DNA of 48,997 nt from assembly GCF_029889805.1 (NCBI RefSeq), contig NZ_JARANT010000009.1:1-48997 (forward strand), read 5' to 3'. The notes beneath the pieces were generated by a model. The model ran no database searches, was not told the DNA's origin, and was given only the letters and a program-made list of their open reading frames with translations. Shown here piece by piece: positions 21,295 through 35,959 of the stretch. Origin of the DNA: Halorubrum sp. Boch-26 (lineage in GTDB: Archaea; Halobacteriota; Halobacteria; Halobacteriales; Haloferacaceae). The translations under genes and the position numbers were made by a program. Position 1 is the first letter of the stretch, and every line of letters begins with the position of its first letter.

Positions 21295-23802
21295 ATGACG
21301 TCCTTCCAGTCGACTATCGGCGACGAGGAGGGGATCGCGGAGGAGCTGGCCGAGGGCCAGCGCGAGATCTCCATCGCCGAGTTCTTCGAGAAGAACAAAC
21401 ACATGCTCGGGTTCGACTCGGGCGCCCGCGGGCTCGTCACCGCCGTCAAGGAGGCGGTCGACAACGCCCTCGACGCGACCGAGGAGGCCGGGGTCCTCCC
21501 CGATATCTATATCGAGATCGAGGAGGTGGGCGACTACTACCGGCTCGTCATCGAGGACAACGGGCCGGGCATCACGAAAGAACAGCTCCCGAAGGTGTTC
21601 GGAAAGCTCCTGTACGGGTCGCGGTTCCACGCCAGAGAGCAGTCACGTGGACAGCAAGGAATCGGGATTTCAGCGGCTGTGCTGTACTCTCAGTTGACTT
21701 CCGGCCAGCCCGCGAAGATCACCTCGCGCCCGAAGGGGCAGTCGCGGGCGCAGTACTTCGAGCTCATTATCGACACCGACACCAACGAGCCGGAGATCAA
21801 GGCGGACGATGAGACGACGTGGGACCGCCCCCACGGGACGCGGATCGAGCTGGAGATGGAGGCGAACATGCGCGCCCGCGGCCAGCTCCACGACTACGTG
21901 AAACACACCGCGGTCGTCAACCCCCACGCCCGGATCGAGCTCCGCGAACCCGGGCTCGACGAGCCGATGAAGTTCGAGCGGGCGACGGACGAGTTGCCGG
22001 CGGAGACGAAGGAGATCCGCCCGCACCCCCACGGGGTCGAGCTCGGCGCGCTGATCAAGATGCTGGAGGCGACCGAGTCGTACTCGGTCTCCGGATTCTT
22101 ACAGGAGGAGTTCACGCGGGTCGGCAAGAAGACCGCCGACAGCGTCATCGGCAACTTCCGGGACGTGTACTACGGCCGCGAGCTCTCGTGGACGCCGCCG
22201 CGCGCCCACGACGACCGCGACGTCGCGGCCGCGGTGGGCGAGGCGGTCGCCAACAAGGGGAAGGCGGCGACGGCCGACTTCGCCGAGGGCGTCGCGGAGA
22301 CGGTCGCGAACAACGACCGCCTCTCGCGGTCCGAGCTGGCGACGATCGTCGGGAACGTCGCGGAGACGGTCGAGGACGACACGGGCAAGACGTTCGGCGG
22401 GACCGTCCGCGAGAACGCGGTCGACGCGGCGTGGCGGGCGATCACCGGCGTCGACGCCGACGGTGACGCGACCGGAACCGCCGGAGATGTGACCGGAACC
22501 GTCGGGGACGCGGGCGGCGAGGAGGCGGGCGACGAGGAGGCGGGCGACGAGGGCGCGGAATCGCCGCTCGTCGCCGACGTATACGCCCTCGTCGACGAGG
22601 CGACCTCGACTCGGAAAGACGACGCCGCGGTGCAGGCGATGGCCGACGCCCTGACGCGTCGGTTCCTGAACCTCGATGGCGACGCGTTCCGAATCGCTCG
22701 CGACGACCTCGAACGGCTCGTCGCCGACGCGGCCAATTTCGTCGCCGAGCAGCACGACGCGACGTTCGGCGAGACCGCCCGCGAGAACGTCGTCGAGGCG
22801 TTCTGGTCGCGGGCGCGCACCGTACCCGACGACCCGCCGAAGGTGCGTGACGTCGCCGGCGACCGCGACACGTCTGCCGACCTGCTGGCCGCGATGCGGG
22901 CCACCGACATCCTCGCGCCGCCGACCGACTGTCTCGCGCCGATCACGGCCGAGTTGGTCGAGGCCGGCCTGCGCAAGGAGTACGACGCCGACTTCTACGC
23001 GGCGGCGACCCGCGACGCCGAGGTCCACGGCGGGGACCCGTTCATCGTCGAGGCCGGCATCGCCTACGGCGGGTCGATCCCGGCCGAGGGCTCCGTGGAG
23101 CTGCTCCGGTTCGCGAACCGCGTCCCGCTCGTCTACCAGCGGGGCGCCTGCGCGACGACCGACGTGATAAAGCAGATCGGCTGGCGGAACTACGGGCTCG
23201 ACCAGCCCGGCGGGTCGGGGTTACCCAACGGCCCGGCCGTCATCTCGATCCACGTCGCGTCCACCAACGTCCCGTTCACGAGCGAGTCGAAGGACGCGCT
23301 CGCGAACGTCCCCGCGATCGAAGACGAGATCGAACTCGCCGTGCGGGAGGCCGCTCGGGAGCTGAAGTCGTTCCTCAACAAGCGCCGCTCGATGCAGCAG
23401 CGCCGCGAGAAGCAGGACGTGCTCGGCAAGATCCTCCCGGAGATGGCCGACAAGGTCTCCGAGGTCACGGGTCGCCCGCGCCCCGACATCGACGGCGCGC
23501 TGGCCCGGATCATGAACAACGTCAGCGTCGAGCGCGAGGTGTCGGACGGCACCGTGACGCTGGTCGTCGAGAACCACTCCGACGTGAACGAGCAGCTGGA
23601 TATCACCGACATCGTCTCGACCGAGCCGACGGACCCCTCGGAGGGAACGGTCGTCGACATGGACGGCGAGTGGTTCGTCCAGTGGAAGCCCGAGGTCCCC
23701 TCGGGCGACGAGCGGGAACTGACGTACGCGGTCGACGGCGACGCCGAGTTCGAGGTCAGCGTCGGCGGCGTCGAGACGGAGAAACTCACGGTGAACGCAT
23801 AA
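21295..23802 (+). CDS. top6B: DNA topoisomerase VI subunit B
   Basis: 835 residues. The GHKL ATPase domain has E53/N57 in [15 protein letters not shown] at 88-93 and GQQGIGIS (119-126). The transducer domain includes [20 protein letters not shown] (about 642-661) and a C-terminal Ig-like region. Subunit B binds ATP and drives strand passage in the type IIB topoisomerase that relaxes and decatenates archaeal DNA. The H2TH region (around 275-545) is expanded by roughly 200 residues, with two similar segments, [15 protein letters not shown] (366-380) and [15 protein letters not shown] (490-504), and an acidic low-complexity linker between them. A GTTTTTAGG at about 21259-21267 lies upstream of the start. 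It overlaps top6A by one base (TAATG). Confidence 0.97.
22532..22561. repeat. 15-bp in-frame direct repeat inside the top6B linker
   Basis: Two near-identical 15-bp units (GGCGGGCGACGAGGA type) encode the [10 protein letters not shown] stretch of the acidic linker in the Top6B insertion. This is simple local slippage. Confidence 0.7.
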
Positions 23803-24887
23803 TGACGACCGAAAGCGACGCACGAGACGAGCTGATCGACCTGGCCGCCGACTTCTACGACCAGTTCGCGGGCGGGAAGATCCCCGAGTTACAGCTTCCG
23901 ACGCGGACGAAGAGCAACATCGAGTACGACACCGAAAGCGGCGTGTGGACGTACGGCGACCGCACGTCGACGCGCAGCGCCAACTCGGTGCGGGGCGCCC
24001 GCAAGCTGCTGAAGGCCGCGTACACGATCGAGTTCCTCGCGAACCAACTCGACGAGGGGCGCTCCTCGACGCTGCGGGAGCTGTACTACCTCTCGGAGTC
24101 GTGGGACAACGACGAGGCGCAGTTCAAGTCGCAGAACGAGTCCAACGACCTCGTGGAGGACCTGGAGATCGTCACGGGCGTCACCCGCGAGGACTTCCAC
24201 ATGCGCCCGGAGGAGTCGGGCGCGACCCTGATGGGACCGTTAGAGATCCGCGAGCAGACCCGCCGCGGCGAGCGCGAGATCCACTGTCAGGAGGACGTCG
24301 GCGAGGGGGGGTACCAGATCCCGAACAACCCGGACATGATCGAGTTCCTCGACGACGACATCGACTTCGCGCTCGCGGTGGAGACCGGCGGGATGCGCGA
24401 CCGGCTCGTCGAGAACGGGTTCGACGAGGCGTACAACTGCCTCGTCATCCACTTAAAAGGTCAGCCGGCGCGGGCGACCCGCCGGATCACGAAGCGCGTC
24501 CACGACGAGCTCGACGTCCCCATCGCCGTCTTCGCCGACGGTGACCCGTGGTCCTACCGGATCTACGGCTCCGTGGCGTACGGCTCGATCAAGTCCGCGC
24601 ACCTCTCGAAGTACCTCGCGACGCCGGAGGCGCAGTTCGTCGGGATCCAGCCCGAGGACATCGTCGAGTACGACCTCCCGGCCGACCCGCTCTCCGACTC
24701 GGACGTGAACGCCCTCGAATCCGAGCTGGACGACCCGCGCTTCCAGACCGACTACTGGGAGGAACAGATCGAGCTCCAGCTCGACATCGGGAAGAAGTCC
24801 GAACAGCAGTCGCTCGCGAGCCGCGGCCTCGACTTCGTCACCGACACCTACCTCCCCGAGCGGCTCGGAGAGATGGGCGTGATCTGA
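23802..24887 (+). CDS. top6A: DNA topoisomerase VI subunit A (Spo11-like)
   Basis: 361 residues. The catalytic tyrosine lies in [13 protein letters not shown] (Y95/Y96; by comparison with Spo11 the second is expected to attack DNA). The Toprim metal ligands are visible as E194 in LAVETGGM and D246/D248 in FADGDPWS, followed by [11 protein letters not shown]. With Top6B it forms the A2B2 heterotetramer that makes double-strand breaks with two-base overhangs. The start overlaps the top6B stop by one base, which gives tight coupling. The frame is open from 23670 but the ATG at 23802 gives the family N-terminus. Confidence 0.97.
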
Positions 24888-31517: not shown

Positions 31518-32873
31518 CTACTCGTCGAACGGGTTGGTCAGCTCGACCGTCTCCTCCCGGTCGGGGCCGACGCCGACCGCGTAGACGGGCGTGTCGATCT
31601 CGTCGGCGACGAACTTCAGGTACTCGCGGGCGGCCTCGGGGAGGGCGTCGTAGCCGCCCTCGGCGACCGCGGCCGAGTCGAACTCCTCCCAGGTGTCCAG
31701 CTCCGCGAACACCGGGTCACAGCGCTCCCAGCGGTCGGTCGTGGTGGGGACGGTGTCGATCACTTCACCATCGAGCTCGTAGCGGGTACACACCTTCAGC
31801 TCGTCGAGCCCGGCGAGCACGTCGACGTGGTTGACCGCGACGCCCGTGAAGCCGGAGACGCGCGCGGCGTGGCGGAGCATCGGGAGGTCGAGCCACCCGA
31901 TCCGGCGCGGGCGACCCGTGACGGTTCCGAACTCGCCGCCCTTCTCGCGGATCTCGTCGGCGAGCGCCTCCTCGTCGGTGTCGCCGTCGAGCTCGGTCGG
32001 CATCGGTCCTTCGCCGACCCGCGAGAGGTACGCCTTCACGATGCCGACGACCTCGCCGTCGCCGACCGTCGTGATGCCGACCCCGGAGCCGACGGCCGCG
32101 GCGCCCGCGGTCGGGTTCGAGGACGTGACGAACGGGTAGTTCCCGTGATCGACGTCGATGTGCGTCCCCTGCGCGCCCTCGAAGAGGATCTGATCGCCGG
32201 CCTCGCGGCGGCGGTAGAGGTAGTCGCTGCAGTTGACGGTCATTCCCTCGTCGGCGAGGCGCTCGCCGATCGCGGTGAACTCCTCGTGGAGCGCGTCGAC
32301 GTCGAACGCCTCGGCGCGCTCCTCTTCGGCGTCGATCTCGAGCCCGTACACGTCCTCGACGAGCGCGCGCTTCTGCGGGACGGCGTACTCCAGCTTCTCT
32401 CGGAGCACGTCGGGGTCGAGCAGGTCGGCGACCCGGACCCCCCGTCGCCCCGCCTTGTCCTCGTACGTCGGGCCGATTCCGCGGCCGGTCGTGCCGACCT
32501 CGTCGCCGGCGTCGTCGTCCGCTTTGACCTCCTCTTCGATCCCGTCCAGCACGCGGTGGTACGGCATGATGACGTGCGCTCGGCGGGCGACCCGCACGTC
32601 GGGGTCGAGCCCGCGCTCGCGCAGGTCATCGATCTCGGTGAACAGCGTGCGCGGGTTGACGACGCAGCCGTTGCCGAGAATGCCGACCGTGCCCCGGACG
32701 GCGCCGCTCGGGACCAGCGACAGCTTGTACTCTGCGCCTCCCTCGACGACGGTGTGGCCGGCGTTGTCGCCGCCCTGATAACGGACTACGACGTCCGCGT
32801 CCCCTCCCCACCGGTCGACGAGCGCGCCCTTGCCCTCGTCACCCAGCTGGGAGCCGACGATGGTGAGTGTCAT
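31518..32873 (-). CDS. purA: Adenylosuccinate synthetase
   Basis: 451 residues. GSQLGDEGKG near the N-terminus supplies the catalytic D12 and the P-loop; GGDNAGHTVV with H40, GTTGRGIGPTYEDKAGRRGVR, FEGAQGTHIDVDHGNYPFVTSSN and GRPRRIGWLDLP are all classic PurA motifs. The enzyme joins IMP and aspartate with GTP to form adenylosuccinate, the first committed step to AMP. The frame is open 21 codons upstream, but the ATG at 32873 gives the family start and a minus-strand TTTTAC lies at 32899-32904. Confidence 0.97.
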   Translation of the reverse strand: MTLTIVGSQLGDEGKGALVDRWGGDADVVVRYQGGDNAGHTVVEGGAEYKLSLVPSGAVRGTVGILGNGCVVNPRTLFTEIDDLRERGLDPDVRVARRAHVIMPYHRVLDGIEEEVKADDDAGDEVGTTGRGIGPTYEDKAGRRGVRVADLLDPDVLREKLEYAVPQKRALVEDVYGLEIDAEEERAEAFDVDALHEEFTAIGERLADEGMTVNCSDYLYRRREAGDQILFEGAQGTHIDVDHGNYPFVTSSNPTAGAAAVGSGVGITTVGDGEVVGIVKAYLSRVGEGPMPTELDGDTDEEALADEIREKGGEFGTVTGRPRRIGWLDLPMLRHAARVSGFTGVAVNHVDVLAGLDELKVCTRYELDGEVIDTVPTTTDRWERCDPVFAELDTWEEFDSAAVAEGGYDALPEAAREYLKFVADEIDTPVYAVGVGPDREETVELTNPFDE

Positions 32874-32898
32874 ACGGCCCGCAACTTCCGGCCGGGGG

Positions 32899-32904
32899 GT
32901 AAAA
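32899..32904 (-). promoter_or_regulatory. TATA-like element of purA
   Basis: The minus strand reads GGTTTTACCC with its A/T core 26-31 nt before the ATG at 32873, fitting a leaderless transcript. Confidence 0.5.
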
Positions 32905-33140
32905 CCGATTACGGTCCGCGGACGCGAATACCCCACGGACGTGTATCACATCGAGGTGCGTTCGCGTGAGATGTCCCCGTTCGTGCTGTCGATCGCCCGC
33001 TCTCCCCGCTCGCTGTGATCGACCCCGACCGATCGCTCCGGCCGACTCGCGAACCGCGCTGACTCGAGCCGATCGAACACGTTAACTACTGTCACGTCGA
33101 ATCGTGGGATCGAGCGACCCCGACCCGGCCGCCGACAGCA

Positions 33141-33176: not shown

Positions 33177-33482
33177 ATGATAGATCGACTAGAGAAGGAG
33201 GTAGACATGCTGGAACGACACCTCCAGGTTCTGCGGATGGTCATCGAAAACGAACCGATCGGCATCGTAAAGATGTCGAACGAGACCGGCTACCCCCACC
33301 ACAAGGTCCGCTACTCGCTGCGCGTGCTCGAGGAGGAGAACCTCATCGAGCCGTCCAGCCAGGGAGCCATCACGACCGAGCGCACCCACGAGTTCGTCGA
33401 CGAACTCGACGAGAAGCTCGACGAGACGGTCGAGAAGCTCGGGTCCATGCGGATCGACGACGCCGCCGAACTCGAGAACTGA
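33177..33482 (+). CDS. Small winged-helix regulator, haloarchaeal
   Basis: 101 residues. MLERHLQVLRMVIENEPIGIVKMSNETGYPHHKVRYSLRVLEEENLIEPSSQGAITTE in residues 10-67 has the helix-turn-helix plus wing layout of an ArsR/MarR-like winged helix. The remaining residues form an acidic amphipathic helix (HEFVDELDEKLDETVEKL) likely to dimerise. Similar proteins are widespread in haloarchaea as predicted regulators; targets are unknown. A clear TATA box lies upstream, and the gene is alone between purA (divergent) and the convergent multidomain gene. Confidence 0.75.
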   Translation: MIDRLEKEVDMLERHLQVLRMVIENEPIGIVKMSNETGYPHHKVRYSLRVLEEENLIEPSSQGAITTERTHEFVDELDEKLDETVEKLGSMRIDDAAELEN

Positions 33483-33616: not shown

Positions 33617-35959
33617 CTACAGGTCGGGGACCGTCATGTGGAAGCCGCCGTCGCGGGCCTCGACCAGACAGAGGTGGTACCCCCGTTTGCGCGAGAGCTT
33701 CACGAAGCTCGCGCGCTTCGACCGACTGAACAGCCCGCCGCCGACGGCGTCGCTCGCGGTCTCCAACGCGCCCGGCTCGAAGAAGCTCTCCGTCACCGCG
33801 AACGCCCCCGCGAACGAGTCGTTGGACTCGGCGATGTCGCGGCCGTTGCCCACGAGCGACTCCAACGTTCCCTTGGCGGTCGGGTCCCGGCTGTCGTTGA
33901 GGTCGGCGACGAACAGGGGGTTCCCCATCCGGTCGCGCAAGACGAGATCGAACGCGCGCTGCTCGCGCGTCTCCTCGCCGTTTTCGCGGATCGCGATCGA
34001 CACCGAGCCGCCGATCTCGGCGCGGTCGATCTCGGGGAGCGCGTCGTAGAGGTCGCGGAGGACGCTCTGGTTGCCGGTCCCGCTCACCTCGAACGGGAGG
34101 TCCTCGACGAGCCACCGAGTGAAGCCGTATTCGATCGTGTTCCGCAGGAACTCCTCGTACGGTTTCCCGTCGACCGAGAGCCCGTCCGTCTCGAAGCTCG
34201 TGTGGTGCTCGATCCGCAGGTTCTCGCGGAGCATGTCGCGGTCCACCGCCCCGCCGTGAGCGTCCTCCAGCGTCGCGCCGCCCTTGGAGTCGTACCTGAC
34301 GAAGAGATTCGTCCCGCTCCGTGCCTCCGCGGGCGAGAGCGATCGGTCGCTCTCGGGGAGCTGGTCGCGGGCCGCGGCGAGTTCGTCGCGGAGCTGGTCC
34401 CGCTCCTCCCGGAGAGTCGAGACCTCGGACTCCAAGCGATCGACTTCGGCGACCAGTTCGTCGCGTTCCGCGGCGACGTCGTCTCGCTCCGCAGCGACCT
34501 CGTCTAACTCCGCCGCCAGCGACTCGCGCTCCCGCTCGGACTCCTCCAGCGCGCCCTCCAGTTGCCGAAGGCGCTCTCCCCGGGACCCCTCGCCGCGCGA
34601 CTGGTCGGGCCCCCGAGAACGCTGCGACACGGCCGACCGGTTCGATTCGGTCCGGCCGGTGGAACGCGGCTCCGGCGACGGCTCCTCCGCGGACCGCCCG
34701 GCCCGATCGGCGTCGTCGCGACGTGCGGCCTCGTTCGACCCGTGCGACTGCCGGGACCCGCGCGCGGCGGTCGTCCCGTTGCGGTCGGGGGCGCTCGACG
34801 GATCGCTCGCCTCCGACGGGTCGAGCGCCGGGATCGACTTCTGCTCGCGCCACTGCTCCTCTTCCGAGAACACGTCGTCGTTCGGGTGCGGCTCGTCCCC
34901 CGCGTCTCCGGATCCGTCTCGGTCGGCGGCGTCGGCGACCCCGACCTCGTCGCTCCGGTCGGCGGTGGCGTCGGCCGATCGCGCACTGGTGGCGTTCCCC
35001 GCGCTTTCGGAGTCGTTCGCGCGCGGCGTCTCATCCGCGGTCCGGGGTCCGCCGCTCTCGTCATCCGCGGTCCGGGGTCCGCCGCTCTCGTCGTGATCAT
35101 CCGCCGCACCGACCTCGACGGGCGACTGCCGCGCGTCGGTGTCGGACTCGTCCTCGCTCCGGCCGTCGGAATCTTTGCGGGTTCCGTCGGCCGCCTCGGC
35201 TCCGCCGACCCCCGAGGCTCGGCCCCCTTCGGCGACGCCGTTCGAATCGTCGGGGGTCGGCTCGTCGGACGCGGCGATGTCGTCGGGCTCCGACCGGTCG
35301 CCGGCACCCGTCTCGTCGGACGCGGACCGGTCGTCGGACTCCGCGTCGTCGGTTCCCCCGTCGTCCGACGCGGTCTCCGTCGACGCGGTGCTCGCCGACG
35401 CCCCGGTCCCGGCGTCGTCTCCGGAGGGGATCTCGCGGACGTTCAGATCGACCTCGTAGACGGTGTAGATGCCGACCTCGTCGTCGGCCAGCGAGAATGC
35501 CTTCTCGCCGGTCTCCAGCCGTCGAGAGTTGCCGACGTACGCAGCGGCCATCGATTCGCCCGCCGTGTACGTGACGTAGTAGTCGCCCGAGAGCACGTTC
35601 TCCGAGAGTTCGACGTAGCCGGTGAACCCCCCCTGCGAGAGCTTGCGGTCCGCCTCCGAGAGCGGGGTGTCGTTCGTGTAGTACTGCGCCCGCGGCTCGC
35701 CGCCTCGCTCCTGCATGGCGAACAGGACTGGGAGGACCGCTTCGGGGGCCTCGTACAGCGTGCCGGAGGCTTCCGCGAACGCCTCTAGGTCGCCGTCTAC
35801 CGCCCCGACGACGCGGCCCTCGAACACGAACAGCCACGCCGTGCCGTCGGTTACCGCGCCGGAGAACCCGCGGTCGACGAGCCGCCCGAGCTCGGCGAAC
35901 CCGCCAGAGAACTCGCGGGCGTCCCACCCGGTGATCTCCGATCGTCGCTCTGCGTCCAT
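33617..35959 (-). CDS. Multidomain coiled-coil protein (DUF7527-type, unknown function)
   Basis: 780 residues, recalled as DUF7527 but not checkable here. Residues 1-180: two similar alpha/beta halves, each with a GFSGAV/GFTGYV strand and a sensor-like layout. Residues 180-460: acidic Ser/Asp/Gly-rich linker with a duplicated ten-residue unit. Residues 460-540: coiled coil (LEGALEESERERESLAAELD and similar heptads). Residues 548-780: a globular domain with RAFDLVLRDRMGNPLFVADLND, a strand-turn-strand with aspartates that recalls a PD-(D/E)xK nuclease core in which the lysine is replaced by Asn (weak inference). No membrane helix or signal peptide. A minus-strand GGTATTTGGG at 35984-35993 is the probable TATA box. 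Confidence 0.75.
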   Translation of the reverse strand: MDAERRSEITGWDAREFSGGFAELGRLVDRGFSGAVTDGTAWLFVFEGRVVGAVDGDLEAFAEASGTLYEAPEAVLPVLFAMQERGGEPRAQYYTNDTPLSEADRKLSQGGFTGYVELSENVLSGDYYVTYTAGESMAAAYVGNSRRLETGEKAFSLADDEVGIYTVYEVDLNVREIPSGDDAGTGASASTASTETASDDGGTDDAESDDRSASDETGAGDRSEPDDIAASDEPTPDDSNGVAEGGRASGVGGAEAADGTRKDSDGRSEDESDTDARQSPVEVGAADDHDESGGPRTADDESGGPRTADETPRANDSESAGNATSARSADATADRSDEVGVADAADRDGSGDAGDEPHPNDDVFSEEEQWREQKSIPALDPSEASDPSSAPDRNGTTAARGSRQSHGSNEAARRDDADRAGRSAEEPSPEPRSTGRTESNRSAVSQRSRGPDQSRGEGSRGERLRQLEGALEESERERESLAAELDEVAAERDDVAAERDELVAEVDRLESEVSTLREERDQLRDELAAARDQLPESDRSLSPAEARSGTNLFVRYDSKGGATLEDAHGGAVDRDMLRENLRIEHHTSFETDGLSVDGKPYEEFLRNTIEYGFTRWLVEDLPFEVSGTGNQSVLRDLYDALPEIDRAEIGGSVSIAIRENGEETREQRAFDLVLRDRMGNPLFVADLNDSRDPTAKGTLESLVGNGRDIAESNDSFAGAFAVTESFFEPGALETASDAVGGGLFSRSKRASFVKLSRKRGYHLCLVEARDGGFHMTVPDL
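35031..35090. repeat. Exact 30-bp tandem duplication in the linker of the multidomain gene
   Basis: Units at 35031-35060 and 35061-35090 are identical and in frame, encoding a repeated DESGGPRTAD-type decapeptide in the acidic linker. A recent slippage event; copy number may vary between strains. Confidence 0.95.

Follow-up and report, generated by a model that had tools for sequence, protein, structure and literature searches.

What work might be done by a large acidic protein in which two small N-terminal units are joined, through a long tether and a coiled coil, to a nuclease-like domain that has lost its catalytic motif? This question is raised by a gene of Halorubrum sp. Boch-26, found in a stretch of 48,997 nucleotides that was analyzed as a whole (contig NZ_JARANT010000009.1; hereafter the window). 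The gene lies on the reverse strand (33617..35959) and encodes a protein of 780 residues starting with ATG, as supported by the open reading frame, a Pfam match and orthologues. Its parts are, in order, a two-unit N-domain, an acidic linker, a coiled coil and a pseudonuclease-like DUF7527 domain. Since the N- and C-terminal parts are conserved across haloarchaea, this architecture is not a product of chance. The initial annotation had described a large soluble multi-domain scaffold, and this description is supported by the degenerate nuclease-like fold of the C-terminal part together with the adaptor-like N-terminal units. The literature search returned no paper on DUF7527, none on DUF2226 (see below) and no report on the 780-residue protein. 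In the literature searched, the combination of parts and a short motif of the linker thus appear to be undescribed; the single parts are of recognizable kinds. An Rfam search gave no match, and a scan for promoters and terminators found none.

The C-terminal domain (aa 541-780; 33620..34339, reverse strand) matches the Pfam family DUF7527 (PF24371) over its full length (profile positions 1-237 of 237, E 1.2e-108, 362.6 bits for a cut-off of 27), and the cut-off is passed by all 50 of the 50 aligned family members. The Pfam entry differs in that it spans the C-domain only, with no function given, and the N-domain is without a Pfam model. A sequence search of the PDB with the C-domain gave nothing credible (best E 1.3). 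The structural model of the domain (pLDDT 86, pTM 0.86; residues 202-217 and 238-240 below 50) contains a helix (95-103), three strands (106-119, 122-135 and 141-148), a second helix (156-172) and a fourth strand (178-183), with short breaks. The core of this model is thus alpha-beta-beta-beta-alpha-beta, which fits the fold of the PD-(D/E)XK superfamily. The best VIA-align matches were AF1548 (1y88; Z 8.2, rmsd 4.3, 113 residues aligned), the NucS repair endonuclease of P. abyssi (2vld; Z 7.6, rmsd 3.7, 106 residues aligned) and EndoMS (Z 7.2), at Z values of 7-8 that are, by the tool's own note, the usual top values for models without a clear match. The other matches listed include Can2/Cdn1/Card1, NucC, RPB5, YaeQ and restriction enzymes, and nearly all of the best 50 rows are what we take to be PD-(D/E)XK folds, active or dead. 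Foldseek gave a probability of 1.00 for 1y88 (E 3.4e-3) and of 0.96 for 2vld_A, with no E-value below 0.001. A PD-(D/E)XK-type fold is therefore predicted for the C-domain on the basis of the model, because nearly all of the top rows belong to one superfamily and the motif lies at the expected site, the single Z values being modest. The initial annotation had held that a clear family match together with a C-terminal fold unrelated to nucleases would speak against it; a clear match to DUF7527 was found, yet the predicted fold is nuclease-like. A derivation of DUF7527 from NucS by sequence was also considered and rejected, as hhalign sets FDLVLRDRMGNPLFVA against the NucS stretch IDIFGKDKNQNRVIIE in an alignment that is not significant (score 16.1, equaled or bettered by 21 of 60 column shuffles).

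The state of the catalytic residues was followed in 127 distinct C-domains, which represent 152 sequences (151 loci and the window, two distant homologues included). A degenerate PD-(D/E)xK-like pattern had been noticed in the initial annotation, and the relatives bear it out. In the segment concerned (aa 670-688, FDLVLRDRMGNPLFVADLN; 33896..33952, reverse strand), the first Asp, D131 in C-domain numbering, is kept in 126 of 127 domains. Although the predicted core topology and the structural alignment are shared with NucS/EndoMS and AF1548-type nucleases, (D/E)xK is present in 0 of 127 domains here, having mostly become (D/N)-x-N. The second acidic position is occupied by D (64 domains), N (44), E (9), T (5), A (3) or R (2), and the position of the Lys is Asn (N148) in 117 of 127 and never Lys. 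Because the motif is lost throughout, the DUF7527 domain is probably, as judged by sequence, an inactivated nuclease domain or pseudonuclease. Inactivated PD-(D/E)xK domains with binding roles are exemplified, in the available text of one survey, by the C-terminal domain of RecC and the N-domain of RPB5, in which the fold is kept and the catalytic residues are lost (PMC1185551). RPB5 chains also turned up in the fold search made here, and the comparison with RecC draws on its published description.

A second property of the C-domain is a conserved basic loop (aa 742-759; 33683..33736, reverse strand), whose 18 residues have a net charge of +7, as against -92 for the protein as a whole. Among the 34 predicted genes of the window, 2 reach such a value, the target included (joint highest). 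At residues 203-219 of the C-domain, the 127 sequences have a median net charge of +6, with a range of +1 to +8, and the low pLDDT at residues 202-217 indicates that the loop is flexible.

The N-terminal tandem unit (aa 1-178; 35426..35959, reverse strand) comprises unit 1 at about aa 8-88 and unit 2 at about aa 88-172, and its AlphaFold model, computed with 49 sequences, has a pLDDT of 92 and a pTM of 0.87. In this model, both units display a similar order of consecutive predicted elements, beta-alpha-beta-beta-beta-alpha-beta. Comparison of unit 2 with the N-domain of DUF2226 by hhalign gave a probability of 85% and a score of 36.6, for a maximum of 19.0 among 60 column shuffles, and comparison of unit 1 gave a weak score of 22.6 over 18 columns only, for a maximum of 16.7 among 60 shuffles. 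The description of two similar N-terminal domains given earlier stands, because the predicted element order is shared and both units score above all 60 shuffles against DUF2226-N, but mutual similarity in sequence is not demonstrable (hhalign probability of about 1% between the units). At the level of sequence profiles, unit 2 is related to the DUF2226 N-domain; this is a relationship beyond shuffled columns, not membership. No Pfam model matched the N-terminal 181 residues of the window's protein, and 0 of 49 orthologous N-parts match either DUF2226 (PF09987) or DUF4388/PATAN (PF14332). The distant homologue L053 remains below the DUF2226 cut-off (14.8 bits for 22), and the full-length profile of both distant homologues reaches 1.3% against DUF2226-N. 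Fold searches with the N-domain yielded no clear match, the best Z being 6.5 for acetolactate decarboxylase over 83 residues and the Foldseek probability at most 0.38 among the best 50 rows listed; by sequence, nothing credible was found in the PDB (best E 0.46).

The connection with DUF2226 extends weakly to DUF4388, since 4 of 6 DUF2226-like archaeal proteins that were scanned match DUF4388 below the cut-off (best E 6.8e-5). Across Halobacteriota, DUF4388 was found in 1 of 60 genomes, with a score under the cut-off. The DUF4388 group is presumably PATAN-like. In cyanobacteria, response regulators with PATAN domains act on the pilus machinery, according to the available text of one article (PMC7690835). 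The link of unit 2 with the DUF2226-N/DUF4388 group is in keeping with an adaptor-like character of the N-terminal units. The protein differs from that group in having neither a receiver nor a Roadblock domain, and in the linker, coiled coil and dead nuclease that follow its N-units. In one of the six DUF2226-like archaeal proteins (L161), the N-domain is followed by a Roadblock/LC7 domain, a possible lead to the partners of such N-domains.

The two ends of the protein are separated by an acidic low-complexity linker and a coiled coil. The linker (aa 179-455; 34595..35425, reverse strand) has 277 residues, close to the 280 first estimated, with 71 D+E and 28 K+R. The coiled coil, also anticipated at 80 residues, spans about aa 460-540 (34340..34582, reverse strand), and its best heptad score is 0.86, for a maximum of 0.70 with shuffled linkers. 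Generic coiled-coil families match weakly at aa 461-539. In 75 proteins, the length of the linker including the coiled coil varies between 245 and 555 residues. Within this region, a linear motif is found at aa 363-381 (VFSEEEQWREQKSIPALDP; 34817..34873, reverse strand), the core of which is IPALDP at aa 376-381. Of the 91 distinct linkers from haloarchaea, 90 contain the pattern [IV]P[AS][LIV][DN]P, once each, for an expectation of 0.02 in total from shuffles; that figure applies to the final pattern, as the motif was first spotted by eye in the window and the pattern was widened after viewing relatives. An unguided count in 59 linkers from genera other than Halorubrum recovered the reduced pattern VP.V.P, which is present in 58 of them; a single shuffle gave 0. 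The motif lies 119-211 residues ahead of the C-domain, is extended by W[RQ] in 74 of 91 linkers, and is absent in the sole exception, L069, and in both distant homologues. A degenerate DNA pattern for the motif, in which some Ser codons are excluded, has its sole match in the own genome in this linker. On these sequence comparisons, one short motif is strongly conserved within linkers that are otherwise variable.

The set of 91 linkers consists of the window, 74 of 80 loci and 18 further loci, minus 2 with identical C-domains. Of the six loci dropped, the N-terminal part was cut off or missing in two (L073 and L100), and the N- and C-terminal frames differ in four (L083, L086, L099 and L121). 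In the contigs of the latter four, the different frames of the two parts represent a frameshift, an assembly error or real decay.

The distribution of the family is that of a core gene. Of the 60 genomes sampled within the source organism's own family, 57 carry PF24371, usually as a single copy, with two copies in one genome. In a phylum-wide draw it was present in 52 of 294 genomes, which by our own tally of the genome listing correspond to 50 of the 53 genomes from the haloarchaeal order and, outside it, 2 of 241. Both non-haloarchaeal carriers belong to one genus and are the sole matches among 149 genomes of its class. The closest named relatives are Halorubrum species, with 92-95% identity in the C-domain. 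The family is also present in Haloferax volcanii, in which deletion and point mutants are routine. Across both draws, five haloarchaeal genomes have no match, two of which (G031 and G041) are just 62-70% complete. The target gene is missing in the other three (G005, G187 and G303), which are at least 98% complete, and the neighboring winged-helix gene is kept in all of them. In G303 (L196), that gene and purA are still adjacent, the target having gone, and in G005 (L195) purA is not beside the winged-helix gene, of which further copies are found elsewhere. Because near-complete haloarchaeal genomes can thus be without the target and retain its neighbor, the gene can be regarded as core but losable; it is missing in 3 of the 53 genomes of the haloarchaeal order and therefore not universally required. 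In the distant homologues L052 and L053, the N-domain leads straight to DUF7527 (E 2.7e-18 and 2.6e-17, respectively), with neither linker nor coiled coil, and those parts are therefore not needed in every version of the protein. The tether, its motif and the coiled coil look like haloarchaeal additions, if the comparison of sequences is a guide, or else they were lost in the other lineage, which is represented by two sequences of one genus.

The neighborhood is similarly stable on one side. A convergent gene for a 101-residue winged-helix protein (33177..33482, forward strand) accompanies the domain at all 80 of the 80 loci compared, and purA, for adenylosuccinate synthetase (31518..32936, reverse strand), was recovered from the flank at 78 of them. 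The winged-helix protein, which has only a sub-cut-off match in Pfam (CggR_N), shows 84-100% identity at almost every one of the 80 haloarchaeal loci and is better conserved than the target beside it. Upstream, the neighbors seen in the window, NUDIX and TFB, recur in 37 and 36 of 80 loci, respectively, almost all of them from Halorubrum and close relatives. Operon partners were sought in 16 loci and rejected, as the 5' neighbor differs between genera; there is no evidence for an operon, because the winged-helix gene is convergent and the 5' neighbor varies. The synteny points to a housekeeping setting rather than to a function in common. In Natronorubrum bangense (L198 1-10169; NZ_CP031306.1), the target, the convergent 101-residue gene and purA are on an 828-kb replicon labeled as a plasmid, which suggests that this replicon is chromosome-like. 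Elsewhere in the window (21295-24887), adjacent open reading frames resemble both subunits of DNA topoisomerase VI, judging by the appearance of their sequences.

Taken with its build, the gene is ordinary by distribution and unusual in architecture. We lean, by a modest margin, toward a housekeeping adaptor, cytosolic and non-catalytic, that belongs to the core genes of haloarchaea and whose dead nuclease domain would serve in binding, either of nucleic acid or of a partner. The coiled coil, to judge by its heptads, would make the protein a dimer. By analogy with the PATAN domains of bacteria, the N-units might read a signaling or motor partner. The dead nuclease domain and the basic loop could together hold nucleic acid, or a complex bound to it, uncut, and the IPxLDP-type motif might serve for docking, either of an additional dedicated partner or of the protein itself. 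As a first guess, the role would be in the handling of chromosomes or transcripts. A more specific version is rather unlikely: a lineage-defining haloarchaeal hub dimer would link a signaling GTPase or ATPase, through its tandem PATAN-like units, to a dead nuclease domain gripping nucleic acid by the basic loop, and the single motif, in an acidic tether of several hundred residues, would dock a dedicated partner.

The alternative that survives best is that the C-domain is purely a protein-interaction module and the whole protein a structural or polarity scaffold without any contact with nucleic acid, serving in the control of division, shape or pili. The loss of the catalytic residues would suit such a role, as would the match to RPB5, whose dead domain acts in protein-protein contacts in the available account (PMC1185551), and the work of PATAN-domain regulators on the cyanobacterial pilus machinery (PMC7690835). 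A conserved, flexible basic loop in an otherwise acidic protein is harder to reconcile with it, and no motility, pilus or division gene was recognized alongside in the loci viewed. This alternative is possible but clearly less probable than the nucleic acid- or partner-binding adaptor. That the protein is still an active nuclease, its active site having been moved or altered (with Asp131, Asp136 and His222 of the C-domain, for instance), is improbable: the second acidic position is variable and the Lys has become Asn in most members, even though D136 (126 of 127) and H222 (127 of 127) are as well conserved as D131, and EndA is described, in the text available, as having the same fold with another active site (PMC1185551).

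Two further results concern mobile elements and defense. None of 50,697 phage records matches the target, and 1 of 72,556 plasmid records does, again beside purA. PADLOC gave 24 matches with the full protein, the best stretches of which fall within aa 410-574 and center on the coiled coil, and 0 with the C-domain alone. A defense role is unlikely, and the defense or stress-signaling adaptor of the initial annotation, which the domain style and the CRISPR ancillary nucleases (Can2, Card1) and NucC among the fold matches would favor, is rejected as scarcely credible, because the distribution is near-universal rather than patchy, the neighborhood is fixed and of housekeeping type, phage and plasmid records are almost devoid of the gene, and what PADLOC matches is the coiled coil.

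Many gene families common to most haloarchaea are without a function, a point made for lineage-specific archaeal families in general in the available text of one article (PMC9258230). With the present analysis, one of the widespread haloarchaeal families gains testable handles, namely a predicted dead nuclease fold, an N-domain linked to DUF2226/DUF4388, a basic loop and a motif in its tether.
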